A stretch of 64,000 nucleotides of DNA from Flavitalea plasmicola (lineage in GTDB: Bacteria; Bacteroidota; Bacteroidia; Chitinophagales; Chitinophagaceae): contig NZ_JAUOTO010000002.1 in the NCBI RefSeq assembly GCF_030546645.1, forward strand, positions 496,001 through 560,000, read 5' to 3'. Shown here one piece after another: positions 13,136 through 30,080 of the stretch. The notes beneath the pieces are model-generated. The model worked only from the letters and a program-made list of their open reading frames with translations, did no database searches and was not told the origin of the DNA. Both the position numbers and the translations under genes were made by a program. Within the stretch, counting starts at the first letter, position 1, and every line of letters begins with the position of its first letter.

Positions 13136-14019
13136 GATTCGGCGGGGATCAGCTGTTTGGATTTGGATGTAAAGCTGGATACCGTAGCCTGACCCATCCG
13201 GAAGACGGACGGCGTATTCAATGCCCGGTTGATCAACGACCTTTTCCTGTCAAAGAACCAACCCCATTTATTGAAATACTTGATGGACGACTTCAAATGA
13301 TACCCCAGCAAGCGGAAATTCTTATACGAAGCTTTTGCATACGCGTGGACAATGGTCTCGGCCGGATAATACACGGTCCGGTAATGCTCGTTGATCCTCC
13401 GGCACAGGTCTGTGTCCTCCAGGTACATGAAATACTGTTCGTCGAAGAGGCCTACCTTTGAAAAGATCTCCGTTCTCAGGAACATGAAGCAACCCGATAA
13501 GTTAGGCACTTCCATGACGGAGTCATAGTCCAGGTGCTTCAGCTCATAGGTCTCCAAAGGCTTTTTGAAAAATCGTTTAATGGGACCCGGTATAAATCTC
13601 CGGAGGATGAGGTCGGCCGGAGAAGGCAATTTCTTACAGAGGTGCTGCAGCTCACCGCTCTTATACAGCACTTTTGGCATGACCAGGCCAATATCCCTGT
13701 TTTGCTGCATGAAAGAGAACAATCCATTCAATATACCCGGGTTGAACTCCACGTCCGGGTTTAATACAATATGATAAAGAGAATGATCTTTCGCCCTGTT
13801 GATGGCGATGTTGTGCGCTGCTCCATAGCCAAGGTTCCTTCCCGTAAAAATATATTCTATCTGGGGAGAAATGAACTGGTACCGCAATGTGTCTTCCGCA
13901 GAATTATCGACCAGGTATAGTTTCGCATCCCGGGAATAGCTTAGAAAGCTCTCGATAGGCTTCCTGAGTTCCTCCACCGTATTATGGAATAGCACAATGG
14001 AGCAGCTGATCGCGATCAT
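13132..14019 (-). CDS. Family 2 glycosyltransferase, rhamnosyltransferase-like
   Basis: A 295-residue protein. The GT-A features are 'SIVLFHNTVEELRKPI', 'LYLVDNSAED', 'GRNLGYGAAHNIAI', the DxD-like 'HIVLNPDVEF' and the late acidic 'YFMYLEDTDLCRRINE'. This pattern (NLGYGxAHN, NPDVE, LEDxDLCRR) is typical of WbbL/RfbF-like rhamnosyl- or related transferases. It probably adds a deoxysugar or hexose to the lipid-linked glycan. The stop overlaps the next start as ATGA. The exact donor is an open guess. Confidence 0.87.
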   Translation of the reverse strand: MIAISCSIVLFHNTVEELRKPIESFLSYSRDAKLYLVDNSAEDTLRYQFISPQIEYIFTGRNLGYGAAHNIAINRAKDHSLYHIVLNPDVEFNPGILNGLFSFMQQNRDIGLVMPKVLYKSGELQHLCKKLPSPADLILRRFIPGPIKRFFKKPLETYELKHLDYDSVMEVPNLSGCFMFLRTEIFSKVGLFDEQYFMYLEDTDLCRRINEHYRTVYYPAETIVHAYAKASYKNFRLLGYHLKSSIKYFNKWGWFFDRKRSLINRALNTPSVFRMGQATVSSFTSKSKQLIPAES

Positions 14020-14030
14020 TGACTTGAGTT

Positions 14031-15176
14031 TTAATTTATTGAAAAATGATTGTCTAATAAGGTCTTTACCTCACGGGCCGTCTTTTCCCATGAGAACTTT
14101 CGTACCTGGATCAGGCCTTTCTCTCTCAGCAGGCGGCATGTCCCTTCGTCGGAGATCAACTGCTCTATGACCGCCCTGATACTACCTTTATCCGAAGGGT
14201 CGAAGTACAATGCGGCATCCCCGCAAACCTCGGGCATGGAAGAAGTGCCGGACACTGCCACAGGGCATCCGCAAGCCATTGCTTCCAGCAGCGGAATACC
14301 AAAGCCCTCATACAGGCTGGGAAAGATCAGCGCATGGGCTTCACGATACAGTGAAGGCATCAGGGTCATTGGTACATACCCCGTAAAATAAACATCCGTA
14401 CCCAGGTGCAGCTGTTCAACCCGGCGCTTCAAATAATTAGTATATTCCTTTTTTCCGCCGGCAATTACCAAGGGATGCCGGCTGCGAACGGCGGGGCGAA
14501 GCTCATGGTAAGCCAGCAAAAGCATTTCCAGGTTCTTGTGCGGATAGGTAGGTCCCACCGCCAGCAAATAATCCTTGAACCCATACTCCCTGTATATTAT
14601 ATTATCTTTTCCCGCCTGGGGAAAATAACGGGATTCATCATACCCATTGTAAACCACCTTTACCTTTTCTTCCGGGCACTTCAACAAACGGATGATATCC
14701 TGGCGGGTAGTCTCCGACACCGTCAGGATCAGCGCCGCACGCGACACGAGCAATGGAAGGAGATATTTGAAGTACAGCCGCTGGTGGGTGCTGATATGCC
14801 TGTACCGGAGTGAAAGCAGGTCATGGATGGTGATGACCTGGTTCTTCAGTAAAAAGCTGCCGTGGGTCGTTGGACTGATCAACAGATCGTAATTCCGCGC
14901 CTGTAATGGATAAGAGAAAGTATTCCAGAGGAAGCGGCAGAACGCCGCTATCCTGCCATATTTTGAAGATTGCAGCAATTCAGATAGTTTCACCACTTTA
15001 AGACCTTTATCCAGCAAGGTCTGCGTTGGTGAAAATACCGTCAGTTTCCTACCTCCCTCCTTTCCATAAAGACAGAAGAGATGATTGATCAGATTGAATG
15101 AATAAACTCCCACTCCCGTAGGCTGCTCATCCAGCATAGAACCGTTCATACCGATCGACAGGTCGTGTTTGGTCAT
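14031..15176 (-). CDS. Family 4 glycosyltransferase (mannosyltransferase-like), first gene of the minus-strand exopolysaccharide operon
   Basis: A 381-residue GT-B enzyme. The N-terminal domain begins 'LSIGMNGSMLDEQPTGVGVY'. The donor domain has 'LLAVGPTYPHKNLEMLLLAY', 'VYFTGYVPMTLMPSLYREAH' and the classic GT4 motif 'FPSLYEGFGIPLLEAMACGC', in which the two Glu residues contact the nucleotide sugar. Close relatives are often called mannosyltransferases, but this is family resemblance only. It stands first in the minus-strand run. The 235 bases upstream (15177-15411) are shared with the divergent gene at 15412. Confidence 0.88.
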   Translation of the reverse strand: MTKHDLSIGMNGSMLDEQPTGVGVYSFNLINHLFCLYGKEGGRKLTVFSPTQTLLDKGLKVVKLSELLQSSKYGRIAAFCRFLWNTFSYPLQARNYDLLISPTTHGSFLLKNQVITIHDLLSLRYRHISTHQRLYFKYLLPLLVSRAALILTVSETTRQDIIRLLKCPEEKVKVVYNGYDESRYFPQAGKDNIIYREYGFKDYLLAVGPTYPHKNLEMLLLAYHELRPAVRSRHPLVIAGGKKEYTNYLKRRVEQLHLGTDVYFTGYVPMTLMPSLYREAHALIFPSLYEGFGIPLLEAMACGCPVAVSGTSSMPEVCGDAALYFDPSDKGSIRAVIEQLISDEGTCRLLREKGLIQVRKFSWEKTAREVKTLLDNHFSIN

Positions 15177-15322: not shown

Positions 15323-15350
15323 TTTAACTAATTGTTAACGCACTGTTACT
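15323..15350 (+). promoter_or_regulatory. 11-bp phased TTAA repeat array (Pho-box-like operator) before the gene at 15412
   Basis: Three hexamers stand exactly 11 bases apart: TTTAAC at 15323, GTTAAC at 15334 and GTTACT at 15345. The same hexamer and period recur before the genes at 17300, 25984 and 27643. Period and core match the direct-repeat boxes bound by PhoB/PhoP/SphR-type response regulators. No clear -7 element was found at the distance seen in the other three arrays, so the promoter position here is unresolved. Confidence 0.55.
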
Positions 15351-15411
15351 ATTCTATTTTCATTTAAAAATCTTATACACATCAACGGGGAATATCTTTA
15401 TTTGCACGCCA

Positions 15412-16167
15412 ATGGTTCATCTTATTAAGTTCTGGTATGCGATGATCCTGCTGCTGATGAGCGGGGGCTGTTTCGCGCAATGGAAAATCTCTCCCGGCTT
15501 TCAATTGGTGAGATCCTCTATCATAGATAAGAACTTCAGCGCGGCCCCTTTTTCAGGCGTTGTTCCGGGAGCGTCCATTTCCCTAACGCACGAGGGGGAT
15601 CGCTGCATCCATGCGTTATCCATCAATTATATAGGAGGAAGCTTACCAATGTCGAACCACCCGGAATATGAGGTAAGCGTGAAATACTTCGATGGGGCGT
15701 ATAGCTGGCTGTATAAGTTGAAGAAGGCAGGTGGGGCGTGGAGCGGAGGGGTTGGCGGCGGGCTAATGGTGTTGTATGACAGCAGGAGCTACGCGGGCAT
15801 CGTCAATAACAATACATCATTTGATTTTGCCGCCTCCCTGGCGTTGTCGGGCGCCGTCGCCTATTCCCTTAATAATATATGGTCACTTTCAGACCAGATG
15901 AATATTCCTGTCGTCTCCTGGATGATCCATCCTCCTTATGGGCAGGAATCGGGGCTGTCTTCTTTTGGAGGTTCGGGCAACCGGCACCAAATAGCCAGTT
16001 TCTCTTCGTATATGCGGTTGAAAAATGCGTTGTCGCTGAACAGGCAAGTGGGCGCCCGGGGAATGTTCAGCCTGGCTTACTGCTGGGATTATTACAGGAT
16101 CGACGACCTCAGAGCGGTGCGACAGGCCGTTCACAGTGGGGGAATTATATACAGGTTAACACTTTAG
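15412..16167 (+). CDS. Predicted small outer-membrane beta-barrel protein
   Basis: A 251-residue protein with a signal peptide (about 1-22, ending GCFAQ). The rest has alternating polar and hydrophobic strands with many Gly, Ser, Tyr and Trp residues ('ASISLTHEGDRCIHALSINY', 'GGVGGGLMVLYDS') and ends in 'GGIIYRLTL', a terminal beta-strand suited to outer-membrane insertion. No family was recognised. It is followed after two bases by the S41 peptidase lipoprotein, so the two are almost surely one operon. The TTAA array at 15323 lies 62 bases before its start. Confidence 0.65.
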   Translation: MVHLIKFWYAMILLLMSGGCFAQWKISPGFQLVRSSIIDKNFSAAPFSGVVPGASISLTHEGDRCIHALSINYIGGSLPMSNHPEYEVSVKYFDGAYSWLYKLKKAGGAWSGGVGGGLMVLYDSRSYAGIVNNNTSFDFAASLALSGAVAYSLNNIWSLSDQMNIPVVSWMIHPPYGQESGLSSFGGSGNRHQIASFSSYMRLKNALSLNRQVGARGMFSLAYCWDYYRIDDLRAVRQAVHSGGIIYRLTL

Positions 16168-16169
16168 CT

Positions 16170-17192
16170 ATGCATGACCGTCATTGGGTGATAAGAATTA
16201 CCGGCGTCTTGTTTACCGCAGCGCTGCTGCTGACGACCACGGGGTGTGAAAAAGCATTGAACCTCAAAGACCCAGCCGTCAACGCCACTGCCGTCTTCGA
16301 CGAGCTCTGGACAGTCATGGATAAACATTACTCCTTATTTCCTTATAAAGGAGTGAACTGGGACAGCGCTTATGGGCCGTTCCGTGCAAAGGTCCGCGAC
16401 GGTATGCCGGAGACGGAGCTTTTCGGCGTCTTATCGGACATGCTGGCAGCGCTGAAGGACGGTCATGTTACTCTCACCTCCTCCATAGATACTTTCACTT
16501 ACCTGGGCTTCTACAAACCCTACCCTTACAACTTCAATTACGAGAATATTGTCAATACCTATCTGCAGCATGCATACAGCACCAGCGGCCCCCTCATCTA
16601 TAAGATATCGTCCGGCGTAGGATACCTGTATTATAAGCGCTTTGCCAATGACGTCACCGATCAGCAAATAGATAAGGTGTTGACAGACATGGCGCAAACG
16701 AAGGGGCTGATCATTGACGTAAGGGATAATACAGGGGGCAGCACAGCAAATGCCGACAGGATGTTCCAGCGTTTCATCACGGCAAGAACATTGGTGAAGT
16801 TTGAGCTGTCTAAGAAAGGGCCCGGACATGATGATTATACGGCCCCTCAGCCTTATTATATATCACCTGCGGGCGTCCATTACGGCCAACCTATCGTCGT
16901 GCTGACGAATCGTGCCTGCTTCAGCGCCTGCAATGATTTTGTACTCTACCTGTCCGGGCTTCAGAACGTAACCCAGATCGGCGATCAGACGGGAGGAGGG
17001 GGCGGCATACCAGGTGACTACCTACTCTCCAATGGATGGAAGCTGCAGTATACTGCAACTGTTACGCTATCTTCCGCCAAAGCGCCGGTGGAAAATGGTA
17101 TCGTTCCGGACATTCCTATCAACATTTCCCCCAGCGATGAGAGCAATGGGAAGGATCCTATTCTTGAAAAAGCATTTCAATCACTGCAGTGA
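16170..17192 (+). CDS. S41-family (C-terminal-processing-like) peptidase, lipoprotein
   Basis: A 340-residue protein. The frame is open upstream to 15879, but the ATG at 16170 sits two bases after the previous stop and starts a proper lipoprotein signal ending TTTGC (Cys26), so I take it as the start. A tail-specific-protease N-terminal helix bundle (about 35-115) precedes the S41 catalytic core. The nucleophile is Ser252 in NRACFSACNDF, after the substrate strand 'GLIIDVRDNTGGSTANADR'. No PDZ domain is evident. S41 peptidases trim proteins at their C-termini in the periplasm or at the cell surface. The partner is probably the barrel protein or the receptors downstream (inference). Confidence 0.85.
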   Translation: MHDRHWVIRITGVLFTAALLLTTTGCEKALNLKDPAVNATAVFDELWTVMDKHYSLFPYKGVNWDSAYGPFRAKVRDGMPETELFGVLSDMLAALKDGHVTLTSSIDTFTYLGFYKPYPYNFNYENIVNTYLQHAYSTSGPLIYKISSGVGYLYYKRFANDVTDQQIDKVLTDMAQTKGLIIDVRDNTGGSTANADRMFQRFITARTLVKFELSKKGPGHDDYTAPQPYYISPAGVHYGQPIVVLTNRACFSACNDFVLYLSGLQNVTQIGDQTGGGGGIPGDYLLSNGWKLQYTATVTLSSAKAPVENGIVPDIPINISPSDESNGKDPILEKAFQSLQ

Positions 17193-17225
17193 TCCTTTCT
17201 GTGTGGCCTTCAAAAATAATAGGAT

Positions 17226-17271
17226 GTTAATGATCCGTTAACACAAACATTCTCATCATAAGCTAGTTTTG
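17226..17271 (+). promoter_or_regulatory. 11-bp phased TTAA repeats with a TAnnTTTG -7 element before the receptor gene at 17300
   Basis: GTTAAT at 17226 and GTTAAC at 17237 are 11 bases apart. A weak third copy, CATTCT, stands at 17248. A perfect Bacteroidota -7 element, TAGTTTTG, lies at 17264-17271, 27 bases after the start of the last strong repeat. No TTG-type -33 element is present at normal spacing, as expected of a promoter that needs an activator bound at -35. Confidence 0.65.
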
Positions 17272-17299
17272 GAAAAATTAGCCATTCGACCCAAAACTT

Positions 17300-20074
17300 A
17301 TGCCTGTGCTCAATCAAAGACGCAGGGCGGGCTTTCTATTGCCTGCCTGCTCCTCCATACTGCTATTGTTAGCATGTACGCGCGCCGCAGCTCAAACACC
17401 TGGTTATGACTCAACGATAGCAAGGCTTGGACCTACAACCATTCAGCCGGGCACCGATAAAGATGGCGCGCAGCTGCTGAAGCGGTTAAACGGTGTGATC
17501 GTAGAGAACAAAGCAGGTGCTGCCTATCTCTCCTCGCTGAATATATCCGGAATGGGAGAAAGGTACAACCAGGTGCTATTCAACGGCGCGCCTTTGCCCA
17601 GCTTCAGCCCCACGGGCAGGGCCTGGCCCCTGGATCTTATTCCCGTAGAAACGATCGAAGAAGTGCGTGTTTTCAAAATAGCCAGCTCCTCCATTCCTGC
17701 CGGAGCTGCCGGAGGGACCATCGCTATCCGGACCAGGGACATGCCGGATCACAATTTCTTCTACATAAAGGCTGGCGGTGGATTTTCCAGCGCCACCACG
17801 GGAAAGGATTTTTATTCCGACAAGCGCAGTGGAGGAGAATGGCTGAGCTTTCCAGGATCTGTGAGAAACCTTCCTGGCGCTTTCCCGACCACCCGGTCTC
17901 AATTTTCTCTCGACCAGCTGAACCCGCAGGAACAGGTGGCCCAGTCGAAGGCACTTAGCAATAACCTGGCACCTGTAAACCATGGCAGCGCCAAGCCCAA
18001 CGATAACGTGGCGTTAGCCTTCGGCAGGGTGATATCCTTAAAAAAGGGGGAGACCATCGGCATTCTCGCTCTCATCAACCACCAGGGCGCCGAGCGCATC
18101 GATGGATCCACTGTCCAGGCGGTGCCGGACCTGCCAGCCAATCTCTACCCATTTGCCGACGGCAGCAAACCCCTGGTAAAGTCGTTGTCCGAAGATATCC
18201 ATTATCGTTATACCTCTCAGCTGGGCGCCACGCTGAATGCATCTATCCTGTTTGGCAATAGCAAGATCTCCCTGAAGAATTTTTTCAGCCACCGTTTTAC
18301 CAATACCTATACCCGGAGATCACAGCTTTTCAAGCCGGATGAAGATAGCCTCGCTCACACAGGGATCAACTATCTCACGGAGCAGACGACCTTCCTGCAT
18401 ACACAATTGTCAGGCGAGCATGCCCTGGGAGGCGACGGCAAATTCAAATTGAGCTGGCAGGCATCCTATGCCTACCTCCGCCAGCAAAACCCGGATGAAC
18501 GCAATTTCCTGCTGAGGCAGGACACTGTAAATGGCAATACTTATGAAATAGCCCGCCCGCAGGTGATACTGAGCGTCGATCCGCTGAATCCCAATAGTCA
18601 GCGTACGATCGACCCCAGCTTTACTAATTCGGCAAGGCAATGGAGGGACGCCACGGAGCATAATTTCACCGGCTCGGTCGGCATCCTCGTTCCTTTTCAT
18701 GTCTCCGGCCAGGAGCAGGTCCTGTCCGGCGGGGTGAGCATTCAATCCAAATACAGGGTCCTCCACAGCGATCTTTTATTGACACGGGGGACCGGTTATT
18801 ATTCTTTAAACGATCTCCTTGCGCCGGAACGCTACTTTCCCGGAGGACTTACCGTAGCCAATTACTTCATCAATGGGAGATCGATCTTTGCAGCCAGCAA
18901 CAGCGCGTATATCGATGGGACCAACAGGGGTAATTATGTCGCTTCCTCCAACCTTGGATCAGCCTATATCATGCTGGAAGATCATTTGATGAGATCCTTA
19001 TCCCTTAACTGGGGATTGCGCCTGGAATCCAACAGCCAATTGGTCTCCAGCACCCAATATGCCTATAGTGCAGGATTCAAAAATCCCCAGCTTCTCACCA
19101 TAGACGAAAATACCAGGGTCACCAATACCGACGTGCTGCCTTCCGTGGAGCTCGTCTACCGTCCCCTCTCCAAAGTTCAGCTGCATGCGGCCGGGTTCAG
19201 GACGGTGAGCAGGCCGGAATTACAGGAACTATCGGCTTACAGGCATTATGATGCCCTTTCATTCATGGTCACTACGGGCAATCAACTGCTGGCAAACTCG
19301 CTGGTCAGCAATTATGACATAGGAGTGGATTGGTTCCCCCACACCGGCAGCCATATCGCTGTCGCAGGGTTCTATAAAAAAATAGATCAACCTATCGAAA
19401 ACATCCTGTCACCGTATTCAAATTCAGTGGGCAACCTGGCCAGCACTCCTTACAACACTCCATCCGCGGATGTACGTGGATTGACCGCCTCATTCAGAAC
19501 GAACCTGAGTTTTATTGCCGATGCCGGCTGGCTCACGGATCTCACTTTCTTTGCAGGCGGCAGCTGGCTTACGTCCTCCGCTTCAGGAGGCGCCATCAAA
19601 AGTACCGTCACCCCGAATGTTGTCGAGCACAAGCTGAGCGGAAGCCCCGATCGTACGATGAATGCGGGTGTGGTGATACAGGTCCCCCGCTGTCCCATGT
19701 TAACCGTCCTGTACAACCGCATAGGGGATTATATTTCCGCGCTGGGCTCGGGCACCAGATACAGGCTGCCCAACGCCGCGGAAGTCTCCGCCATCCCTGA
19801 CTACAGGGTAAAGGATAGGGATCAGCTGGATATCCAGATCTCTCAAAAATTGTTTAAAGCAAGGATACAGCTGATCGCGGGCGTAAATAACCTTACCAAC
19901 AGCGCCTACACCGAATACCAGGACCTGAATGGCAATAAGAAGTACGACCAGCCTCTCTCCCTTATCATTAAGAACAACAGCGGAGGTTTTTTCAACGGCG
20001 GGGTGGACAACACCGTCCTGAGCATAAAAGCCCAGCGCACCTATTATCTAACTGTTTCATACCTCTTCAGATAG
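17300..20074 (+). CDS. TonB-dependent outer-membrane receptor (no N-terminal regulatory domain)
   Basis: A 924-residue protein. The signal peptide (about 1-33, ending AAAQ) leads directly into a plug domain, without the carboxypeptidase-regulatory sandwich found in the paralogue at 21453. Plug features are 'LLKRLNGVIVENKAGAAYLS', 'NISGMGERYNQVLFNGAPLP' and 'IKASSSIPAG'-like residues near 130. A 22-strand barrel region follows and ends 'RTYYLTVSYLFR'. Near the end, 'YQDLNGNKKYD' resembles a calcium-binding loop. The protein should move a ligand across the outer membrane using TonB. Four bases separate it from the beta-helix lipoprotein gene; no SusD is present. The ligand is unknown. Confidence 0.87.
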   Translation: MPVLNQRRRAGFLLPACSSILLLLACTRAAAQTPGYDSTIARLGPTTIQPGTDKDGAQLLKRLNGVIVENKAGAAYLSSLNISGMGERYNQVLFNGAPLPSFSPTGRAWPLDLIPVETIEEVRVFKIASSSIPAGAAGGTIAIRTRDMPDHNFFYIKAGGGFSSATTGKDFYSDKRSGGEWLSFPGSVRNLPGAFPTTRSQFSLDQLNPQEQVAQSKALSNNLAPVNHGSAKPNDNVALAFGRVISLKKGETIGILALINHQGAERIDGSTVQAVPDLPANLYPFADGSKPLVKSLSEDIHYRYTSQLGATLNASILFGNSKISLKNFFSHRFTNTYTRRSQLFKPDEDSLAHTGINYLTEQTTFLHTQLSGEHALGGDGKFKLSWQASYAYLRQQNPDERNFLLRQDTVNGNTYEIARPQVILSVDPLNPNSQRTIDPSFTNSARQWRDATEHNFTGSVGILVPFHVSGQEQVLSGGVSIQSKYRVLHSDLLLTRGTGYYSLNDLLAPERYFPGGLTVANYFINGRSIFAASNSAYIDGTNRGNYVASSNLGSAYIMLEDHLMRSLSLNWGLRLESNSQLVSSTQYAYSAGFKNPQLLTIDENTRVTNTDVLPSVELVYRPLSKVQLHAAGFRTVSRPELQELSAYRHYDALSFMVTTGNQLLANSLVSNYDIGVDWFPHTGSHIAVAGFYKKIDQPIENILSPYSNSVGNLASTPYNTPSADVRGLTASFRTNLSFIADAGWLTDLTFFAGGSWLTSSASGGAIKSTVTPNVVEHKLSGSPDRTMNAGVVIQVPRCPMLTVLYNRIGDYISALGSGTRYRLPNAAEVSAIPDYRVKDRDQLDIQISQKLFKARIQLIAGVNNLTNSAYTEYQDLNGNKKYDQPLSLIIKNNSGGFFNGGVDNTVLSIKAQRTYYLTVSYLFR

Positions 20075-20077
20075 AAA

Positions 20078-21439
20078 ATGAAAAAACATTTGCGTCATAC
20101 GTTTCCCATCAGCTGCCTGGGGTTAGCGCTTCTCTGCATACCCGGTTGTAAAAAGGCTGAAAACGTCACCATATCCGCGTCAAAGCCGGAAAAAGACATC
20201 AAAAGTTTTTTCGGTTCGGATAACAGCGTGAACAGACCCAAGGTCATACACCTGTATAGCGATACCGTTTACAATGTCTCCGAATCTTTTACCAGGGAGG
20301 CCGGCGAACAGTTGCTCATCGATGAAGGCACGGTGTTAAAAGCTGCAACTGCGACGATCACGATAAAACCCGGGGGCGCCCTGCTGGCGAATGGCACGCC
20401 CGATCGCCCGATCGTATTTACCAGTGCATCGGCTCCCGGCACCCAGAACAAGAACTGGGGAGGGATCATCATCCAGGGAAATGCCGCTGACAATTCCGCT
20501 GCCGCAAGCGGTAACCCGGCTGATTTCTCCGGATCGCTTCGCTATATCAGGATCGAGTTTGCCGGGCTGATCCTTGGCGGGGTTGGCAGCGGGACCACCG
20601 TGGAGAATATACAGGTAAGCTATGCACAGGGCCAGCCCGCATTTGAAATCGACGGAGGCACATTCAACGCCCGCAATCTGTTGTCTTATGCCTGCGGAGG
20701 GTCGGTGGACTTTTATATCACGCGGGGATACACCGGAAAAATGCAAAATGTGCTTGCCTACCGGCACCCTTTTTTCGGCGCCAACAACCCTGCCCCGCCC
20801 AATGTCCTCGCCGGCGTATACATCGAGAACAACCCCTATGATACGGCAAAAAGACCTTATACCAATCCCATCATTTCCAATCTCACCGTGATAGGTCCCG
20901 ATGCACAGAATGGCTCGGCCGCCGCCTACACCGACACCGTATCCTCCCGCTCTGCGGCGCTGGTGACTTCGCGCAATGCGCATTTCCGTATTCGCAACTC
21001 CCTGTTGCTGGGCTTCCCCGAAGGGGCGTGGTACCTGGACGATTCTCTTGTTGCGGCTGCCCTGGTCAGTAAGCAATCCGAATTCACCTATTCCATCGTG
21101 CATAGCAATGACAGCGCCCGGGCCTTCTATTTGAAGCCAGGCGCATACATTCCTTTTAATTCCCAGGATTTTAAAGAATATATGCTGGTGCAGTGCTATG
21201 ACCGGCAGTATAAAAATACCGGGGATCTTATGCTCAGGGATCCTTTTAATTATGATGCCCCCGACCCTATGCCGAAAGAAGGTTCGCCCGTGCTCACCGG
21301 CGCCGACTTCAGTGGCGCCGAATACAGCGACACTTATTTTAATAAAGTAACGTATGCCGGCGCCATTGGCAGCGATAACTGGCTCCGGGCATGGACCAAC
21401 TTCACCCCTTTGAAGACGAACTATAATTTTCCAAAATAA
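20078..21439 (+). CDS. Beta-helix lipoprotein, candidate surface partner of the TonB receptor
   Basis: A 453-residue lipoprotein with its lipobox ending IPGC at Cys24, followed by KK. The mature chain is a right-handed beta-helix by appearance: short strands with Gly/Asn turns, such as 'GTVLKAATATITIKPGGALL', 'NWGGIIIQGNA', 'LRYIRIEFAGLILGG' and 'NVLAYRHPFF'. It ends 'DNWLRAWTNF', a C-terminal motif shared with the lipoprotein at 24471. Members of this Bacteroidota family are often mislabelled multidrug transporter in databases, but there are no membrane segments. It lies four bases after one receptor and 13 before the next. Ligand capture in place of SusD is inference. Confidence 0.72.
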   Translation: MKKHLRHTFPISCLGLALLCIPGCKKAENVTISASKPEKDIKSFFGSDNSVNRPKVIHLYSDTVYNVSESFTREAGEQLLIDEGTVLKAATATITIKPGGALLANGTPDRPIVFTSASAPGTQNKNWGGIIIQGNAADNSAAASGNPADFSGSLRYIRIEFAGLILGGVGSGTTVENIQVSYAQGQPAFEIDGGTFNARNLLSYACGGSVDFYITRGYTGKMQNVLAYRHPFFGANNPAPPNVLAGVYIENNPYDTAKRPYTNPIISNLTVIGPDAQNGSAAAYTDTVSSRSAALVTSRNAHFRIRNSLLLGFPEGAWYLDDSLVAAALVSKQSEFTYSIVHSNDSARAFYLKPGAYIPFNSQDFKEYMLVQCYDRQYKNTGDLMLRDPFNYDAPDPMPKEGSPVLTGADFSGAEYSDTYFNKVTYAGAIGSDNWLRAWTNFTPLKTNYNFPK

Positions 21440-21452
21440 AGAATTGACTGCA

Positions 21453-24400
21453 ATGCATCAACATATCAACAGGACCTGGATACGATTGTGCCTTTTGTCG
21501 CTTTGCACCTTCCAGCTCTCTCTCCTGGTATTTGCGCAAAAAGGGTCTGGGAAGCTCACCGGTAAGATCCAGGATGCCGCCACCAATGAAACGCTGGCCG
21601 GCGTAACCATCACGGCGAAAGGCCTCAAATACGGAACCACCACGATCACGGATGGAACCTACATTCTTTCCCTTCCCGAGGGCACTTATACCATACGGTA
21701 TTCCTATACGGGACACAAAACAAAGGAGATCACCGGTGTAGTTATTAAGCCCGGGGAAAGCACTTTCCAGGATATCCTGCTGGAATCAGCCACCAAAGAG
21801 CTGCAAGGGGTGGTGGTCACGGCCAGTGCCAAAAAAGAATCGCAGTCCTCCGTCTACTCGGCCCAGAAACGCAGTGCGGCCATGTCGGACGGCATATCCC
21901 TGGAAGCTATTCGTAAAACACCCGACAACAACGCCGGTCAGATCCTCAAAAGAGTATCCGGGGTAAACGTACAAGACAATCGCTTTGTCGTGGTGAGGGG
22001 TCTTGGAGATCAGTATAACCAGACTACGCTGAACGGGGCTGTAATGACCAGCACGGAAACGAACCGGAATGCCTTTGCTTTCGATCTGATCCCCGCCGCC
22101 GTCCTGGATAATATCACCATTAATAAGACCGCCACACCGGATATGCCCGGCAACTTCGGAGGCGGCATTGTACAGATCAATACCAAGGATTTCCCTTCCA
22201 CCGATTTTTTCTCCCTCCTTCTGCAGGGAGGATTTGCGGACGGCACCTATGGAAAGGATTTTTATGGCGACCGGCGAGGTAAAATGGAATGGCTTGGATA
22301 CGGAGGGAGCATCCGCGATCTGCCAAAGGGCCTTCCCACCGGCGCGGGCAGGACTACCATCGCGGATCTGAGCCTGCAGGAAGAATATAGGTATTTAAAG
22401 CAGCTGCCCAATAACCTTGCGCCAATGAATCACGGACCTGCCAGGATCAATCCCACCGGACAATTGGGCTATGGCAAGACCATTAAATTCAAGGATGACA
22501 CCCAGCTGGGCATCGTGGCTGCGCTTAACTACCGCAAGATACAGATCATTGAACAGGAGACCACTGTCAGAGACCCGCTGCTTTCCATCGGAGGCTCACC
22601 CCATGATACGATCCGCGGGTTTTCCTATTCCTTCAAAGACACCCGCTACCGTGGCACCGTCGAGTTCGGGGGAATCCTGAATATAGCCTATCGTTTTGGC
22701 AATAACAAGGTGTCACTAAAGAACTTCTATACCAATGTGTTCAACAGCACCTTTACCAGCCGCCCGGATATGATCATCAGCACGGAGGCATATACCCCAA
22801 ACCCTCCTGTAGGAGGCAGACCCGAGAGGATATTGGGTTTGGGATATTATATCGAACAAAAAAGCATCCTGAACAGCATCCTGGGAGGCGAGCACAGGAC
22901 AGGGAAAAACAATGAAACGAAATTGGAGTGGAATGTGAATACGACTGCCATTACAACCAATACCCCTGATCTCAGGAACTATGTGCTGACATACGACTCC
23001 GTAACCGGGAATTATTATACCAGCGCCAATCCCGCCGATCTCACCCAGGCGCTGGTGATCAACAGCAGGGCCTGGAGCCTTACTAAAGATCGCATATACG
23101 GGGGGGCATTCAATCTCACCACCCCCTTTGGTTTGCTGAACAATAAGCAGCTGTTGAAAGGCGGCATCCTCTTCCAGAACAGGGAAAGGAAAAACACCGG
23201 CACCGTGCTTCCCGTCTCCCATCTTGGCGGTCCGTCGATAGAAAGCCTGATGGCACCTTCCAGCTACGTTCCTTTTTATGGGGCGGGCATAGACGTGGGT
23301 ACCGCAGCGTTGTTAGGCGGCAGCGGAAATTACAATTCGGGCAGCAGCCTGCTGGCGGCTTATGAAAGTCTTGAGAACACGATCCGAAAGAAGATCCGTA
23401 TCATCTGGGGACTACGCGTGGAAAGCTACCAGCAGACGGTGAATTTGTATAGCCCGGTGTATTACAGCAATTTCGAGGACCCCGAGCTCCAGCCTCAAAA
23501 ATTTGCGTCCCGGACAACCTTTAATTTCCTTCCCTCTGTAAATGCCGTCTATAGTCCCATCCCTGATATAAACATCAGAGGCGCCTATTCCAATACTGTC
23601 ATCCGCCCGGACCTGAAAGACCTGGCCGATTACCAGCGCTATGACCTGGCATCCTTTTCTTTGGCCTCCGGCAACAGCCGCCTGAAAAGTACCTCTCTGC
23701 GCAACTATGATCTCAAGTTCGAGTGGTTCCCTTCTTCCGGAGAGATCATTTCATTTTCCGCCTTCTATAAAAATATACAGGACCCTATCGAGTATGCCCG
23801 TGCCGATCTGGGCAACGACTATAGCACCAAATACGCCATCAACAGCGGGAAGGCCTATGTAAAGGGCCTGGAAACAGAGTTCAGGAAAAAGCTCGATTTC
23901 ATACCCTTCGCGCCCTGGCTGGCCCATATTACCATTTTCGGCAACGCATCCATCATCCGGTCGAAAGTGTCGGGCAAGCAGATCAATAGCTTTGTGCTCA
24001 GCAGCTTCAGCGAACACACGCTCACCGGCCAGCCGGATTATATCATGAATGGAGGCGTTAGCCTGCTGGCATTCAACAACAGTTTTGAGATCACGGCTTC
24101 CTATAATAAAACAGGTGATTATATCAATGAATTGGGAACCTCCGATCTGGCGGTGCATCTTGCCAATGGTGTAAATATTCCCATGGTTCCACACTACCGG
24201 GTGAGATCCAGGGATATGGTCGACCTGGTCCTGGGCCAGTCCTTGTTTAAAAATAAATGTAAGCTGAAACTGAATGTGATCAATTTGCTGAAAAAAAGAT
24301 ATATTCTATACCAGGACCTCAATGGCAATAAGAAGTTCGACACCCCTGTGACCGTTAAGCCAGGCGGCAAGACGACCAATTATCTCGCCGGTGTCGATAA

Positions 24401-24461
24401 TACGCCCATCAGCATCGATCCCCAAAGAGCCTATTCATTTTCGGTTTCTTACACATTTTAA
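21453..24461 (+). CDS. TonB-dependent outer-membrane receptor with carboxypeptidase-regulatory-like domain
   Basis: A protein of 1002 residues from the ATG at 21453; a TTG at 21444 would add three. After the signal peptide (about 1-29, ending FAQ) comes the regulatory sandwich ('GKLTGKIQDAATNETLAGVT', about 32-115). The plug follows (about 125-250), with 'ILKRVSGVNVQDNRFVVVRG' and 'TPDMPGNFGGGIVQINTKDF', then the barrel ending 'RAYSFSVSYTF'. Many segments match the receptor at 17300, including 'KDFYGDRRG', 'NNLAPMNHGPA' and 'YQDLNGNKKFD', so the two are paralogues. It is the third gene of the 17300-25841 operon. The cargo is unknown; phosphate-containing compounds are a guess from the operator. 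Confidence 0.88.
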   Translation: MHQHINRTWIRLCLLSLCTFQLSLLVFAQKGSGKLTGKIQDAATNETLAGVTITAKGLKYGTTTITDGTYILSLPEGTYTIRYSYTGHKTKEITGVVIKPGESTFQDILLESATKELQGVVVTASAKKESQSSVYSAQKRSAAMSDGISLEAIRKTPDNNAGQILKRVSGVNVQDNRFVVVRGLGDQYNQTTLNGAVMTSTETNRNAFAFDLIPAAVLDNITINKTATPDMPGNFGGGIVQINTKDFPSTDFFSLLLQGGFADGTYGKDFYGDRRGKMEWLGYGGSIRDLPKGLPTGAGRTTIADLSLQEEYRYLKQLPNNLAPMNHGPARINPTGQLGYGKTIKFKDDTQLGIVAALNYRKIQIIEQETTVRDPLLSIGGSPHDTIRGFSYSFKDTRYRGTVEFGGILNIAYRFGNNKVSLKNFYTNVFNSTFTSRPDMIISTEAYTPNPPVGGRPERILGLGYYIEQKSILNSILGGEHRTGKNNETKLEWNVNTTAITTNTPDLRNYVLTYDSVTGNYYTSANPADLTQALVINSRAWSLTKDRIYGGAFNLTTPFGLLNNKQLLKGGILFQNRERKNTGTVLPVSHLGGPSIESLMAPSSYVPFYGAGIDVGTAALLGGSGNYNSGSSLLAAYESLENTIRKKIRIIWGLRVESYQQTVNLYSPVYYSNFEDPELQPQKFASRTTFNFLPSVNAVYSPIPDINIRGAYSNTVIRPDLKDLADYQRYDLASFSLASGNSRLKSTSLRNYDLKFEWFPSSGEIISFSAFYKNIQDPIEYARADLGNDYSTKYAINSGKAYVKGLETEFRKKLDFIPFAPWLAHITIFGNASIIRSKVSGKQINSFVLSSFSEHTLTGQPDYIMNGGVSLLAFNNSFEITASYNKTGDYINELGTSDLAVHLANGVNIPMVPHYRVRSRDMVDLVLGQSLFKNKCKLKLNVINLLKKRYILYQDLNGNKKFDTPVTVKPGGKTTNYLAGVDNTPISIDPQRAYSFSVSYTF

Positions 24462-24470
24462 GAATTCCAA

Positions 24471-25841
24471 ATGACTACAAACATGTCGCAAAATAAAAAT
24501 AAGTTCCTGGTTCCCGTCATCCTCCCGTTGCTGATGCTGTACGGGCAAGCCTGTAAAAAATATTCGCCATTCATAAAAAGGGCCAAGCCGGAAATAACGA
24601 TCGCAGGAAATGACAGCAGACTGGCGGGAAAATCAATCCATCTTTTCCAGGATACGGTGTATATCCTCACCACCTGGCTGGCCAGGGATAGCGGACAGGA
24701 CCTTATCATCGACGCGGGCACGCTGATTAAAGTCGATGATAATATTTCCATCATTATCGGGCAAGGAGCGACCATTCAGGCAAACGGCACCGCCACGGCC
24801 CCCATCGTTTTTACAAGCACCGCCTATGCCGGCACTGCAGGCGTCGGCATATCAGGCAACAACACCAATGCCGGCCATCGCTGGAACGGCCTTTGGATCT
24901 ATGGCAATTCGGGCGCCCCGTCGTCCGCCACCTCGGGGACATTACATTATGTGAGGATCGAATTTGCCGGGGGGTACCAGGGTGATGTAACAGCAGGGCT
25001 CTATTTGCATAATGTTTCGAAGACCACCAGCATCGAGCATGTACAGGTGAGCTACTCCTACCTGAACCCGTCGTTCGAGTTTGCGGGAGGGGATTGTGAT
25101 GCAAAGTACCTGGCCTCTTATGCATCCGTTGGCTCCGACTTCTATCTGCACCAGGGATATACGGGACGACTGCAATATATTTTAGCCTATCGTCACCCTT
25201 ATTTTCCGGATAACCAGAGCAGCTATTACCCGGGCGACGCCCTGGCGGGTATGCTGATCCGTGACGACACGACCTTGCCGTCCATCTCCAACCTGACAGT
25301 GCTGGGACCCGACCCGGCGCAGACAAGCAGCAAATATTCGGAAACAGGTCATCGTGCAGCCGGCTTCGTTGCTTTGGGCGGCGCAAAGTTCCATATCAGG
25401 AATTCCGTGGTCCTCAGCTTCCCCAAAGCAGGATGGTACCTGGACGATGCCGCCGTGGCGACGGCCATTTCCAATGGACAAGCCGATCTCACCTGGTCCA
25501 TCGTTCACTGTACTGACAGCTCAGGAGCATTCTACCTGAAGCCGGGCACCTTTGGCACAGCCACCTCCGCCGACTTTAAACAATATATGCTCCAAACCCC
25601 GTTTGGAAACCAGCTGCTGTTGAACACCAATGATCTGGTGCTGACGGATCCTTTCAATTATGACCGGCACCCGGACCCCATGCCGAAGACAGGATCTCCT
25701 TTGCTGACTGGCGCCCATTTCGATGCTCCCTTTGATGATGCCTTCTTTAATAAAGTGGATTACCGGGGGGCATTGGGCACTGACAATTGGTTGAAAGACT
25801 GGACTAATTTTCTTCCCCTGCAAACAAATTATAATAACTAG
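24471..25841 (+). CDS. Beta-helix lipoprotein, paralogue of the 20078 gene
   Basis: A 456-residue protein. A lipobox ends GQAC at Cys28, followed by KK; the start could also be the ATG four codons later. The body repeats the pattern of the 20078 product: 'LIIDAGTLIKVDDNISIIIG', 'GLWIYGNSGAP', 'LHYVRIEFAGGYQGD', 'VQVSYSYLNPSFEFAGGDCD', 'ILAYRHPYF', 'RNSVVLSFPKAGWYLDD' and the end 'TDNWLKDWTNFLPLQTNYN'. The receptor-lipoprotein pair has thus been duplicated as a unit and each copy has diverged. It follows its receptor by nine bases and ends the operon. It probably sits on the outer membrane and helps the adjacent receptor (inference). Confidence 0.72.
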   Translation: MTTNMSQNKNKFLVPVILPLLMLYGQACKKYSPFIKRAKPEITIAGNDSRLAGKSIHLFQDTVYILTTWLARDSGQDLIIDAGTLIKVDDNISIIIGQGATIQANGTATAPIVFTSTAYAGTAGVGISGNNTNAGHRWNGLWIYGNSGAPSSATSGTLHYVRIEFAGGYQGDVTAGLYLHNVSKTTSIEHVQVSYSYLNPSFEFAGGDCDAKYLASYASVGSDFYLHQGYTGRLQYILAYRHPYFPDNQSSYYPGDALAGMLIRDDTTLPSISNLTVLGPDPAQTSSKYSETGHRAAGFVALGGAKFHIRNSVVLSFPKAGWYLDDAAVATAISNGQADLTWSIVHCTDSSGAFYLKPGTFGTATSADFKQYMLQTPFGNQLLLNTNDLVLTDPFNYDRHPDPMPKTGSPLLTGAHFDAPFDDAFFNKVDYRGALGTDNWLKDWTNFLPLQTNYNN

Positions 25842-25848
25842 GAGATCG

Positions 25849-25916
25849 CTTAACACTAACATCTCTTTCTGTTAATATCGTGTTAATGATCCGGTCATGT
25901 TGCCTTACTAACTTCA
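25849..25916 (+). promoter_or_regulatory. 11-bp phased TTAA repeat array and -7-like element before the lipoprotein gene at 25984
   Basis: Hexamers in one 11-base phase: CTTAAC at 25849, a degenerate copy at 25860, GTTAAT at 25871, GTTAAT at 25882 and GGTCAT at 25893. A -7-like TAACTTCA stands at 25909-25916, 27 bases after the start of the last strong repeat. The array begins eight bases after the previous gene and gives the 25984 gene its own promoter. The layout matches the array at 27486 base for base in length. Confidence 0.65.
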
Positions 25917-25983
25917 TCCAACATTCGAAAATAGTCAGTGTAAGTACAATCAAACCTTTCCATTAATTTAAAACCTTCATTAG

Positions 25984-27390
25984 ATGAAAAAAATCATTTT
26001 CGCCTTCTTAGGCGTAGCTACGCTTTTCACTGTCTCCTGCAAAAAAGATGGATTTCACGAGAGCAAAGAACTGGTGTCCGGCGGCGCTTCCGGCGTCGAC
26101 ACACTGGTAGGAACGATCTCCCATGACACAACGGTGGTAAGAACCACTTATCTGAAAGGCATCGTATACGTTGCCCCCGGCGCGACTTTGCGGATCAACG
26201 CCGGTGTCACGATCAAGGGCAGCCCCGGTGGCGTTGCTCCCGATACGATCAACCTTGCCAATAATAAAGGTACCCTGGTCGTTGAAAAAGGCGCGAAGCT
26301 GATAGCCAATGGTACGCCCACTTCACCTATCGTCTGGACTTCTACGGCTGCAGCCGGCTCCCGCCATTTCGGCGACTGGGGTGGCGTCATCCTGTTGGGG
26401 AATGCTACTATTCACACTGCTACCGGTGCAACCACCAATACTTTCGAAGCACTTCCTTCTTCTGATCCCCGTAACAGCTATGGCGGCACCAATGACGCTG
26501 ACAATTCCGGCTCCATGACTTACAATCGCCTGGAATTCGGCGGTGGCGTGATCGCCAAGCCTAACCAGGAAGTCAACGGTCTGACTTTCTGCGGCGTGGG
26601 TAATGGCACCGTGATCAATCACGTTGAGGTCACCAACTCCGGCGATGACGGGTTCGAATGGTTTGGCGGCGCCGTCAATTGTGACCACCTGGTCGACTTC
26701 AGCCCCAAAGACGACGAATACGACTTTGATGAAGGCTACCATGGTAAGCTGCAGTTCATCATCGCATACCGGCTTAACATCAATGACAATTCGGGCTCCC
26801 ATTGCATCGAGACGGACAATGATGCCAGCGCAACGAATGGCAATCCTCATACGCTGCCCTTCATCGCCAACGCTACTTTCATCGGACCTGCCGACACCAC
26901 CAGCGGCGTCGGACCCGGCAACTACTATGACGGCGAGATCTTCTTCAGAAGGAACAGCCGCCTGAGACTGCTGAACAGCCTCATCGTTGCCCAGGCACAG
27001 CCATGGGCCGTAGTGAGCACACCTACTACCAAGCCACTGGTTGCCAGCGCATTTAATCTGACCACCGATTCCGTACTCATCGCTTTCAACATTTTCCAGA
27101 CCAATGGCTCGCATGCCGTTGTCACTTCCAGCATCGAAGGCAATCCTTCCGTAGTCACCGACGACGCGACTACGCTGGCCAAGCTGGGCGGGCTGAGCAA
27201 CTCCTCACTGAGCACCTTTGCAGATTTCAAGCTGGACGGGGCCCTGGCTCCTACCACCGGATCTCCTGCTCTCAGCGGCGGTGTTAACTTATCCGCTTCC
27301 GGATTTGTAGGCACTACGCAACGCGGTGCTGTTATCACCAGTGACCTGTGGACTTCCACTGGTACCTGGCTTTCTACTGCTACCAACTAG
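25984..27390 (+). CDS. Beta-helix lipoprotein, first of a tandem near-identical pair
   Basis: A 468-residue lipoprotein with lipobox ending TVSC at Cys19, then KKDG. The mature N-terminus through about residue 66 is identical to that of the 27643 product. The fold again looks like a beta-helix with Gly/Asp-rich turns: 'FGDWGGVILLGNA', 'NSYGGTNDADNSGSMTYNRL', 'NSGDDGFEWFGG', 'DDEYDFDEGYHG' and 'NDNSGSH'. The many Asp and Glu residues in these turns suggest calcium binding. Its codon choice, rich in GCT/GGT/AAC, hints at strong expression. It has its own operator before it and a hairpin terminator after it. Its role is unknown; a surface binding protein shared by the receptors upstream is my best guess. 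Confidence 0.72.
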   Translation: MKKIIFAFLGVATLFTVSCKKDGFHESKELVSGGASGVDTLVGTISHDTTVVRTTYLKGIVYVAPGATLRINAGVTIKGSPGGVAPDTINLANNKGTLVVEKGAKLIANGTPTSPIVWTSTAAAGSRHFGDWGGVILLGNATIHTATGATTNTFEALPSSDPRNSYGGTNDADNSGSMTYNRLEFGGGVIAKPNQEVNGLTFCGVGNGTVINHVEVTNSGDDGFEWFGGAVNCDHLVDFSPKDDEYDFDEGYHGKLQFIIAYRLNINDNSGSHCIETDNDASATNGNPHTLPFIANATFIGPADTTSGVGPGNYYDGEIFFRRNSRLRLLNSLIVAQAQPWAVVSTPTTKPLVASAFNLTTDSVLIAFNIFQTNGSHAVVTSSIEGNPSVVTDDATTLAKLGGLSNSSLSTFADFKLDGALAPTTGSPALSGGVNLSASGFVGTTQRGAVITSDLWTSTGTWLSTATN

Positions 27391-27433
27391 TCTTTCGAAG
27401 ACATGCTGATTATTTTCGAATGCCCTTTTTGAG

Positions 27434-27468
27434 GGATGCCTCGTCGTGTCGACGGGGCATCCTTATTT
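27434..27468 (+). terminator. Rho-independent-like terminator after the 25984 gene
   Basis: A 13-base stem, 27434-27446 pairing with 27450-27462, has a three-base TGT loop and one T:G wobble. The run TTATTTG follows. It lies 44 bases after the stop and separates the two tandem lipoprotein genes into distinct transcripts. Confidence 0.75.
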
Positions 27469-27485
27469 GTTGATAAAATTATTTA

Positions 27486-27553
27486 GTTAACATTAACGTT
27501 CCTTTATGATAATACTGCGTTAATCATTCGATCATGTTGGCACTCTACCTTCA
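27486..27553 (+). promoter_or_regulatory. 11-bp phased TTAA repeat array and -7-like element before the lipoprotein gene at 27643
   Basis: Hexamers in one 11-base phase: GTTAAC at 27486, a degenerate copy at 27497, GATAAT at 27508, GTTAAT at 27519 and GATCAT at 27530. A -7-like TACCTTCA stands at 27546-27553, 27 bases after the start of the last strong repeat. Every spacing equals that of the 25849 array, with many changes in the bases between repeats. Confidence 0.65.
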
Positions 27554-27642
27554 CGTCCTTATTCGAAACGTAATTCTCCGCATTCTCCGATCCACCCTAA
27601 AAACTGACCTTAATTTCAAACCAATTAATTAAAAATCGACAA

Positions 27643-29061
27643 ATGAAAAAGCTCATTTTCGCATGCATGGGTGTAGCTGTGATCTTCGCCAGCTCCTGTA
27701 AAAAAGACGGATTTCACGAGAGCAAAGAACTGGTGTCCGGTGGCGCTTCGGGCGTTGACACACTGGTAGGAACGATCTCCCATGACACAACGGTTGTAAG
27801 GACTACTTACCTGAAAGGCATCGTGTATGTTGCCCCCGGCGTAACTTTGCGGATTAACGCTGGTGTAACGATCAAGGGCAGCGCTGGTAGTGTTGCACCT
27901 GACACGGTCAACCTCGCCAATAATAAGGGTACCCTGGTAATTCAGAAAGGCGCCAAGATCATTGCCAATGGCACGCCCACTTCACCTATCGTTTGGACTT
28001 CTACCAAGCCTGCCGGCTCCCGTCATTTCGGCGACTGGGGCGGTCTTGTCCTCCTGGGCAATGCTACAATCCACACGGCTACCGGCGCGACCACGAATAC
28101 TTTCGAAGCGCTTCCCTCTTCTGATCCCCGCAACAGCTATGGCGGCACCAACGATGCCGACAATTCAGGCTCCGTCACTTACAACCGTTTTGAGTTCGGT
28201 GGCGGCGTGGTTCTCAAGCCCAACCAGGAAGTTAATGGCGTTACTTTCTGCGGCGTAGGCAACGGCACCGTGTTCAACCACGTTGAAGTCTCCAACTCCG
28301 GCGACGACGGTTTCGAATGGTTCGGCGGTTCTGTTAACTGCGACCACCTGCTGGACTTCAGCCCTAAGGATGACGAATACGACTTCGACGAAGGCTACCA
28401 TGGCAACCTGCAGTTCATCATCGCTTACAGACTCAATATCAATGACAACTCCGGTTCTCATGGTATTGAAAGCGACAACGATGCCAGCGGTACAGCTGTT
28501 GGTCCTCATACGCTGCCTTTCATCGCCAACGCTACTTTCATCGGCCCTGCTGATACGGCCAGCGCAACGGGTGACGGCAACCACAACTACTATGACGGAG
28601 AGATCTTCTTCAGAAGAAATTCCCGCCTCCGCCTGGTAAACAGCCTGATCATTGCACAAGCACAGCCCTGGGCAGTCGTAAGCACGCCTACTACCAAGCC
28701 TTTGGTTGCCAAGAATGCTTCTTTGTCTGATTCCGTGCTGATCGCTTACAACATCTTCCAGACAAACTCAGCTCATCCTATCGTTTCTTCCAGCATCGAA
28801 GGCAATCCTGCTGTCGTCACTGACGACGCGGCTACCCTGGGCAAGCTGGCTGGCCTGAACAACACCGCTCTTGGAGCTTTCGGCGATTTCAAACTGGACG
28901 GCGCCCTGAAGCCGCTGCCCGGCTCTCCCGCCCTCAGCGGTGGTGTTAACCTGGCTGCGCTTGGTCTGACACAGTTTGTCGGAACCACACAGCGTGGTGC
29001 AGTTCTCTCCACTGATGCCTGGACTACCACGGGTACCTGGCTCTCTACTTCTACTAATTAA
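27643..29061 (+). CDS. Beta-helix lipoprotein, second of a tandem near-identical pair
   Basis: A 472-residue lipoprotein with lipobox ending ASSC at Cys19, followed by KKDG. It matches the 25984 product along the whole length, identical for about 48 residues from Ser18 and differing mainly in the signal peptide, in loops such as 'GTAVGPH', and in the C-terminal third. Shared motifs are 'FGDWGG', 'NSGDDGFEWFGG', 'DDEYDFDEGYHG' and 'FFRRNSRLRL'. The conserved acidic turns and variable loops would fit a surface protein whose ligand side is under selection, but this is inference. Its own operator (27486) and a terminator (29105) make it monocistronic. Confidence 0.72.
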   Translation: MKKLIFACMGVAVIFASSCKKDGFHESKELVSGGASGVDTLVGTISHDTTVVRTTYLKGIVYVAPGVTLRINAGVTIKGSAGSVAPDTVNLANNKGTLVIQKGAKIIANGTPTSPIVWTSTKPAGSRHFGDWGGLVLLGNATIHTATGATTNTFEALPSSDPRNSYGGTNDADNSGSVTYNRFEFGGGVVLKPNQEVNGVTFCGVGNGTVFNHVEVSNSGDDGFEWFGGSVNCDHLLDFSPKDDEYDFDEGYHGNLQFIIAYRLNINDNSGSHGIESDNDASGTAVGPHTLPFIANATFIGPADTASATGDGNHNYYDGEIFFRRNSRLRLVNSLIIAQAQPWAVVSTPTTKPLVAKNASLSDSVLIAYNIFQTNSAHPIVSSSIEGNPAVVTDDAATLGKLAGLNNTALGAFGDFKLDGALKPLPGSPALSGGVNLAALGLTQFVGTTQRGAVLSTDAWTTTGTWLSTSTN

Positions 29062-29104
29062 TGGCTGCTGATTACTTCGAATAAGTATCCGCTAAACCTC
29101 CTGG

Positions 29105-30071: not shown

Positions 30072-30080
30072 TCCGCGATC

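Follow-up and report, generated by a model that had tools for sequence, protein, structure and literature searches.

What do the direct repeats do that stand in steps of 11 base pairs (bp) upstream of a cluster of receptor and lipoprotein genes in Flavitalea plasmicola, and which regulator reads them? The question arises from a window of 64,000 nucleotides (C12:496001-560000 of a genome of 8.73 Mb in 19 contigs), where an earlier note had described phased TTAA hexamers before the open reading frames (ORFs) at 15412, 17300, 25984 and 27643 and had proposed Pho control for all four. The proposal holds for three of them. The arrays before 17300, 25984 and 27643 are very probably operators of PhoB, the phosphate regulator of Bacteroidota (PhoR-PhoB pair). 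This prediction from sequence is made because arrays of this kind, spaced alike from the -7 element, precede pst, PlcP-like, PAP2, receptor and phoB-like genes in this genome or in relatives, and because the window genes resemble clusters of Flavobacterium johnsoniae that are induced when inorganic phosphate (Pi) is depleted. For the array before 15412 it is not supported.

The thirteen hexamers and three -7-like elements listed in the earlier note were all recovered letter for letter, as was the distance of exactly 27 bases from the last strong hexamer to the -7 elements at 17264, 25909 and 27546. The core had to be revised: it is not TTAA but the wider TAAY, found in units such as CGTAAC, GGTAAT, GTTAAC and GATAAT, and one in-phase unit, AATAAT at 17215, had been missing from the list. 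The three arrays and their -7 elements are the following.

17215..17242, plus strand: Pho-type array before the receptor operon; TAAY at 17217, 17228 and 17239 (47, 36 and 25 bases before the -7 element); hexamers GTTAAT (17226) and GTTAAC (17237)
17264-17271, plus strand: -7 element of the receptor operon promoter, TAGTTTTG; matrix score 18.1
25849..25898, plus strand: Pho-type array before the 25984 lipoprotein gene; TAAY at 25851, 25873 and 25884, degenerate units at 25860 and 25893; hexamers CTTAAC (25849), GTTAAT (25871), GTTAAT (25882) and GGTCAT (25893)
25909-25916, plus strand: -7 element before 25984, TAACTTCA; matrix score 34.1
27486..27535, plus strand: Pho-type array before the 27643 lipoprotein gene; TAAY at 27488, 27510 and 27521, degenerate units at 27497 and 27530; hexamers GTTAAC (27486), GATAAT (27508), GTTAAT (27519) and GATCAT (27530)
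27546-27553, plus strand: -7 element before 27643, TACCTTCA; matrix score 35.5

Like a Pho box, these elements are tandem direct repeats with an 11-bp period, and before 17300, 25984 and 27643, though not before 15412, the array lies where a -35/-33 element would, always equally far from the -10/-7 element. Repeats of CTGTCAT, the E. coli Pho box consensus, are absent from the arrays, the units of which read TAAY. The phase of TTAA words is by itself weak evidence: the window holds four pairs of TTAA at 11 bp, while 200 dinucleotide shuffles give 0.8 on average and as many as 5. Phase together with the fixed -7 distance is strong evidence, as TAAY pairs at 11 bp in register with TAnnTTYR occur three times in the window, whereas the shuffles average 0.005 and never exceed 1.

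The architecture is conserved upstream of relatives of the lipoprotein gene. The 25984 lipoprotein is encoded in 210 of 294 sampled genomes of the family, from which 30 upstream loci were studied (28 after removal of the near-duplicate L103 and of L128, a contig from a viral collection). The 28 upstream regions contain 31 TAAY pairs at 11 bp and 23 at 22 bp, with 1.2 of each expected from shuffled sequence, and none at 10 or 12 bp. Units stand 14, 25, 36 and 47 bases before the TA of the aligned -7 element, and a simple score reaches at least 16 in 19 of the 30 relatives; in the others, as judged by eye, the gene mostly sits close behind another ORF. The common pattern is TAAY every 11 bp, about three to five units, the last full one of which is usually found 14 or 25 bp ahead of TAnnTTTG. 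L128 (IMG/VR contig 3300020204_000192, filed as viral) encodes a 41% identical lipoprotein and has two TAAY units 11 bp apart upstream.

A wider set comprised 80 named loci selected for the lipoprotein, mostly of Bacteroidota with some metagenome-assembled genomes of Ignavibacteria and Chlorobi; F. johnsoniae is not represented among them, and 76 had enough upstream sequence. When these were sorted by hand from record titles, TAAY pairs at 11 bp exceeded the mean of other spacings in the Chitinophagaceae-type loci (16 against 2.0, n = 17), Sphingobacteria (14 against 2.3, n = 11), Cytophagales (7 against 0.7, n = 10), Bacteroidales (6 against 1.2, n = 16) and the other loci (11 against 0.9, n = 14).

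The receptor promoter is conserved in place as well. In Flavihumibacter sp. ZG627, five proteins of which were compared with the window (38-58% identity), the order is S41, array (27.1), receptor, lipoprotein, receptor, lipoprotein, array (40.0), lipoprotein. The 40.0 promoter was inside the set from which the matrix was built and the 27.1 promoter outside it; since the latter lies at the same spot as the 17300 array, that array is conserved in position.

The matrix itself spans 60 positions and was built from 16 of the 30 relatives' lipoprotein promoters, aligned on TAnnTTTG, which we take to be the Bacteroidota -7 consensus. The window sequence was excluded, and L102 and L103 (near L124 and L107), L113, L114 and L128 (poor -7 elements) and nine promoters without an array were left out. 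In a scan of 0.84 Mb (1.68 million positions) the top three sites were 27546, 25909 and 17264; an additional row at 23.7 represents 25909 displaced by one unit. A scan of 1.63 Mb gave ten positions above 18, corresponding to nine sites; reversed sequence gave none, five shuffles gave 0, 0, 1, 0 and 0, and matrix variants with periods of 9, 10, 12 and 13 gave 1, 0, 1 and 0. A matrix that keeps the 11-base phase and the 27-base distance, the test suggested in the earlier note, is essentially the approach that succeeded, and it ranked the window promoters at the top. A window match at 32266 (16.6) falls inside the range of the controls and was set aside; the TTAA pair at 61589 has no matrix match; and 20 genome stretches, mostly chosen by TTAA pairs (C15:854556 by a weak PstS), hold no site over 18.

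Three of the nine sites belong to the window cluster and the other six lie in one island on another contig, at C17:118.6-139.3 kb.

C17:118663: before a receptor gene; matrix score 43.6
C17:121414: before a calcineurin-like phosphoesterase (PF00149/PF12850, PlcP-like), then a glycosyltransferase; 25.6
C17:123353: orphan, no ORF; 31.2
C17:126831: before an outer-membrane receptor-like gene; 38.4
C17:139164: before a PAP2 protein; 24.2
C17:139277: before a 424-amino-acid ORF (no family for its first 233 residues); 33.9

PF12850 is the family given for PlcP in F. johnsoniae (PMC8115612), and PlcP with a glycosyltransferase forms the lipid-remodelling pair of phosphate-starved bacteria (PMC4796936). 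The island (C17:115-142 kb) also encodes an alkaline phosphatase with a GDPD_2 domain (PF00245+PF13653), a pair of domains reported for the Pi-induced PhoA1 of F. johnsoniae (PMC8115612), together with a DUF47 protein and a Pit transporter; these three have no site of their own. The best match to PhoB in the genome is encoded some 12 kb away from the island (C17:102741-103394; 223 bits, the next best reaching 185), with a kinase of 349 amino acids beside it (about C17:103443-104489), and this pair is likely to be the regulator of the arrays.

In relatives the array also stands before pst, phoB-like and plcP-like genes. In locus L191 a match precedes a 405-amino-acid gene of no known family, followed by pstS, pstC, pstB and phoU (all over NCBIfam cut-offs; pstA by position); in L195 it precedes a pstS-pstB-phoU-phoB-phoR operon (five over cut-off; pstC and pstA by position), and in L194 a pstS-like gene, which at 171 bits stays under cut-off, together with transporter genes. 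In the 80 named loci 108 positions pass 18, against one in reversed sequence, and 54 loci hold at least one. Because the loci were selected for the lipoprotein, matches before it and its receptor are expected; matches before other families, labelled by tblastn, include phoB-like genes (L323, a 129-amino-acid ORF, and L326), a pstS-like gene (L322), plcP-like genes (L299, L311, L362) and a DUF47 gene (L303). A phosphate gene is present in 23 of the 80 loci, against 0 of 40 control pieces, all from the F. plasmicola genome. In at least 14 family genomes, by hand comparison, a PhoR-like kinase (under the model cut-off) is encoded no more than 3 kb away from the lipoprotein. In 30 genomes of the class, regions upstream of pstC have a mean best score of 5.3. 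The corresponding means are -3.8 for reversed sequence (Wilcoxon p 1e-5), -0.1 for the opposite strand (p 0.012) and -5.0 for sequence downstream; the pstC upstream regions hold 27 TAAY pairs at 11 bp, compared with about 6 at other spacings. In L189-L192 PstS lies about 5-11 kb from the lipoprotein, and L190-L192 hold further pst/phoU-like genes.

The second line of evidence is the make-up of the window cluster, all ORFs of which lie on the plus strand.

16170..17192: S41 peptidase (ORF opens at 15879; start set by inspection)
17300..20074: TonB-dependent receptor 1 by family search; 38% identity across 879 aligned columns with the array-preceded receptor of Flavihumibacter
20078..21439: lipoprotein-like protein of the 25984 family
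21444..24461: TonB-dependent receptor 2 by family search
24471..25841: lipoprotein-like protein of the 25984 family
25984..27390: lipoprotein, FI/FII-like by context
27643..29061: second lipoprotein copy, 85% identical to 25984

The proteins at 20078, 24471, 25984 and 27643 form one family, being the only four matches of the 25984 protein in the genome; none has a Pfam or NCBIfam family at E 0.001, and a sequence search of the PDB gave nothing. An AlphaFold2 model of the 25984 protein (22 aligned relatives) is all-beta (pLDDT 78.9, pTM 0.84), and its best Foldseek matches in the PDB are beta-helix tailspikes and pectate lyases, none under E 0.001. The cluster thus places a beta-helix-like lipoprotein beside a TonB-dependent receptor, together with an S41 peptidase. 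In F. johnsoniae, FI, FII and FIII are hypothetical lipoproteins whose folds are polygalacturonase-like and whose homology to a low-phosphate lipoprotein of Caulobacter is modest; FI and FII sit in clusters with TonB-dependent transporters plus an S41 gene or phoBR, and the lipoproteins, the transporters and the S41 gene, the last a member of the PUSIII cluster, are reported as strongly induced by Pi depletion, FI and FII among the most induced (Lidbury et al. 2020, PMC8115612). The likeness of the window cluster to PUSIII/PUSIV is one of gene content. The F. johnsoniae clusters hold phoBR or genes for extracytoplasmic function (ECF) sigma factors or FecR, whereas none of these is among the ten ORFs scanned at 15412-31340 and the phoBR-like pair lies on C17. 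The locus-tag order phoR-phoB-transporter-lipoprotein of F. johnsoniae recurs in Chryseobacterium sp. Bi04 (L315). ElpS/Cc0171 of Caulobacter, likened by description only, is also a low-phosphate extracellular lipoprotein adjoining a TonB-dependent receptor, but it is proteobacterial and exported by type II secretion (PMC2996285).

How does this operator compare with known Pho boxes? Direct repeats with an 11-bp step are bound by PhoB in E. coli and by SphR in cyanobacteria, the latter requiring at least three units of CTTAACCT (PMC1906773, PMC4415409). The window arrays share the TTAAC core and the 11-bp step with the SphR box of that other phylum, but add the register with a TAnnTTTG -7 element and have the looser core TAAY. 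The E. coli repeats likewise lie about 10 bp upstream of the -10 element (PMC1906773, PMC4415409), whereas their core is CTGTCAT and two repeats define a box, as against TAAY and about three to five here. In the same phylum, the Pho-type regulator PhoP of Riemerella anatipestifer, studied by DNA affinity purification sequencing and electrophoretic mobility shift assay, has a motif with TTTAACA as its most conserved letters, and in the parts of the published account consulted we found neither an 11-bp array nor a -7 distance (PMC9603813). Bacteroides fragilis PhoB binds its own pstC promoter fragment in a mobility shift assay, for which we saw no motif given (PMC3547664), and the main text on F. 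johnsoniae does not use the term 'pho box' (PMC8115612). In the open-licence literature searched we found no Pho box described for Bacteroidota besides the R. anatipestifer motif; that motif is already known, and what is new is the promoter architecture across the phylum and the candidate Pho-driven small RNAs described below.

The mechanism that we infer is a simple one. When phosphate is scarce, PhoR would phosphorylate PhoB, dimers of which would line up head to tail on the repeats, at the site expected for a -33 element; bound PhoB could then hold RNA polymerase at a promoter that lacks a good -33 element. Surface lipoproteins and TonB-dependent receptors would be made as a result, presumably for scavenging phosphorus compounds.

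Several observations weigh against control by PhoB. The regulator proposed above stays under the model cut-off (223 against 270 bits), the promoter of the genome's own phoB reaches 4.3 and those of phoB in three relatives -2.7, 9.1 and 3.7, and no PstB over cut-off was found in the own genome. Among phosphate genes of relatives only 3 of the 30 class pstC loci pass 18 and only 6 of 29 scorable family PstS loci reach 16; none of 30 regions upstream of phytase genes, which are Pi-induced in F. johnsoniae, reaches 16, operon position being left aside, and the eight lipoprotein loci of Flavobacteriia show no 11-bp peak (2 against 1.5). The genome-wide 11-bp preference of TTAA pairs is modest. The scan covered 1.63 of 8.73 Mb (19%), the 16 training promoters were picked for the presence of an array, and L099 and L100, the nearest relatives of the 25984 gene (57-59%), are among them, so that the scores at 25909 and 27546 partly reflect descent. 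The score of 17264 (18.1) is near the edge of the controls, one of the five shuffles having reached 19.7. The transcription units, regarded in the earlier note as unrelated apart from the 25984/27643 pair, are less so than claimed: 20078, 24471, 25984 and 27643 belong to the same lipoprotein family, and 17300 and 21444 both encode receptors. The 25984 and 27643 promoters, whose proteins are 85% identical, count as one independent case, not two.

Could another regulator, or none, account for the arrays? The repeats might bind a different member of the OmpR/PhoB family, for example an ArcA-like or envelope-stress regulator, with targets that include phosphate genes among others. The genome encodes 14 or more full-length OmpR-type regulators, and the R. 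anatipestifer PhoP motif was judged most like that of E. coli ArcA, with no pst gene in two target tables of that study (PMC9603813). Against this, the sites precede pst operons and plcP-like, PAP2 and phoB-like genes, and phoB- and phoR-like genes share the lipoprotein locus in several lineages, which makes such a regulator improbable. Still less credit is due to an ECF sigma factor/FecR pair that drives the cluster and leaves the repeats incidental. PUSI, PUSII and PUSIII of F. johnsoniae do carry ECF sigma and/or FecR-like genes (PMC8115612); however, ten window ORFs scanned at 15412-31340 match no sigma, FecR or phoBR family, and the phase and the -7 distance are conserved across families and genera. 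Chance, that is AT-rich upstream regions with TTAA words in phase, is the least probable account of all. TTAA pairs alone are not rare: TTAAY-N6-TTAAY occurs 60+57 times in the genome, against 51+36 for the backwards pattern, TTAAY-N4-6-RTTAAY 60+52 times against 62+55 backwards, and a hand count of 100 of these 112 places gave 21, 45 and 34 for spacings of 10, 11 and 12. The shuffling, reversal and other-period controls and the conservation in relatives nevertheless speak against it for the three accepted arrays.

Control by PhoB, if true, would mean that the array may predict which genes Bacteroidota switch on as phosphate runs out. These bacteria are major polymer degraders in gut, soil and sea, and their response to phosphate has been described through expression data. 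With a matrix able to find pst, plcP-like, receptor and lipoprotein promoters throughout the phylum, the Pho regulon could be predicted from sequence, and the abundant FI/FII-type lipoproteins would gain a likely regulator.

For the fourth array of the earlier note the outcome is different.

15323..15350, no strand assigned: three 11-bp phased hexamers before 15412 (15323 TTTAAC, 15334 GTTAAC, 15345 GTTACT), not accepted as a member; matrix score -5.2
15412..16167, plus strand: ORF of 251 amino acids, no Pfam or NCBIfam family at E 0.001

There is no in-register -7 element on the plus strand. Read on the minus strand the words give a better fit (15.6 for the array part, 7.6 for the full model), in a direction that points towards glycosyltransferase genes. 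In Flavihumibacter no match over 10 precedes the S41 unit, the only such match in the 19 kb of that locus (L395) being the receptor promoter, and tblastn found no homologue of the 15412 protein. Chance is the likely account of the words at 15412 and at 61589. As judged by eye, the L395 ORF just before S41 resembles at its end the 15412 protein.

Some features of the surroundings may be added. Glycosyltransferase genes surround the cluster (window 9000-15176 and 31337-32260), and weak PhoB-model matches at about 45507, 48379 and 52671 indicate response-regulator receiver domains. The own genome has one weak PstS and no phytase was found in it. The five other sampled genomes of the genus (G035, G127, G194, G242, G282) lack the lipoprotein, and its nearest relatives (57-59% identity) are in other genera, which hints that it was gained by transfer or lost in other members of the genus.

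Do all of these promoters serve proteins? Eleven sites without a close ORF of 60 amino acids were examined, and six (L249, L305, L307, L311, L329, L343) have a terminator-like signal within 160 bases. The orphan of the own genome (L249 3353-3470, which is C17:123353-123470) has its terminator-like signal about 105 bases on and a fold z-score of -3.2. Further orphan promoters lie at L311 20053, L307 12593, L329 12857, L343 11606 and L299 15185, with terminator-like signals 82-111 bases on in the first four and none detected at L299; the sequences resemble each other within two Chitinophaga (L311/L299) and within two Pedobacter (L307/L329). Rfam gave nothing over gathering for three of the stretches, L249 included. 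We put forward, tentatively, that a single Pho operator, TAAY in 11-bp steps in register with TAnnTTTG, may serve much of Bacteroidota and some Ignavibacteria and may also drive orphan transcripts of about 70-110 bases ending at intrinsic terminators, possibly phosphate-controlled small RNAs; the candidate sites are C17:123353, L311 with its likely counterpart L299 in Chitinophaga, L307 and L329 in Pedobacter and L343 in Chitinophagaceae. In a phytase neighbourhood, a promoter at L203 3843 (minus strand; 27.5) has no clear ORF or terminator behind it. Small proteins follow other Pho-type promoters: those at L286 2197 (36.8) and L305 8011 (37.7) precede similar ORFs of 38-39 amino acids resembling a small membrane protein, and those at L299 6354, L311 6414 and L362 6582, all in Chitinophaga, precede similar ORFs of 132-147 amino acids close behind the plcP-like gene.

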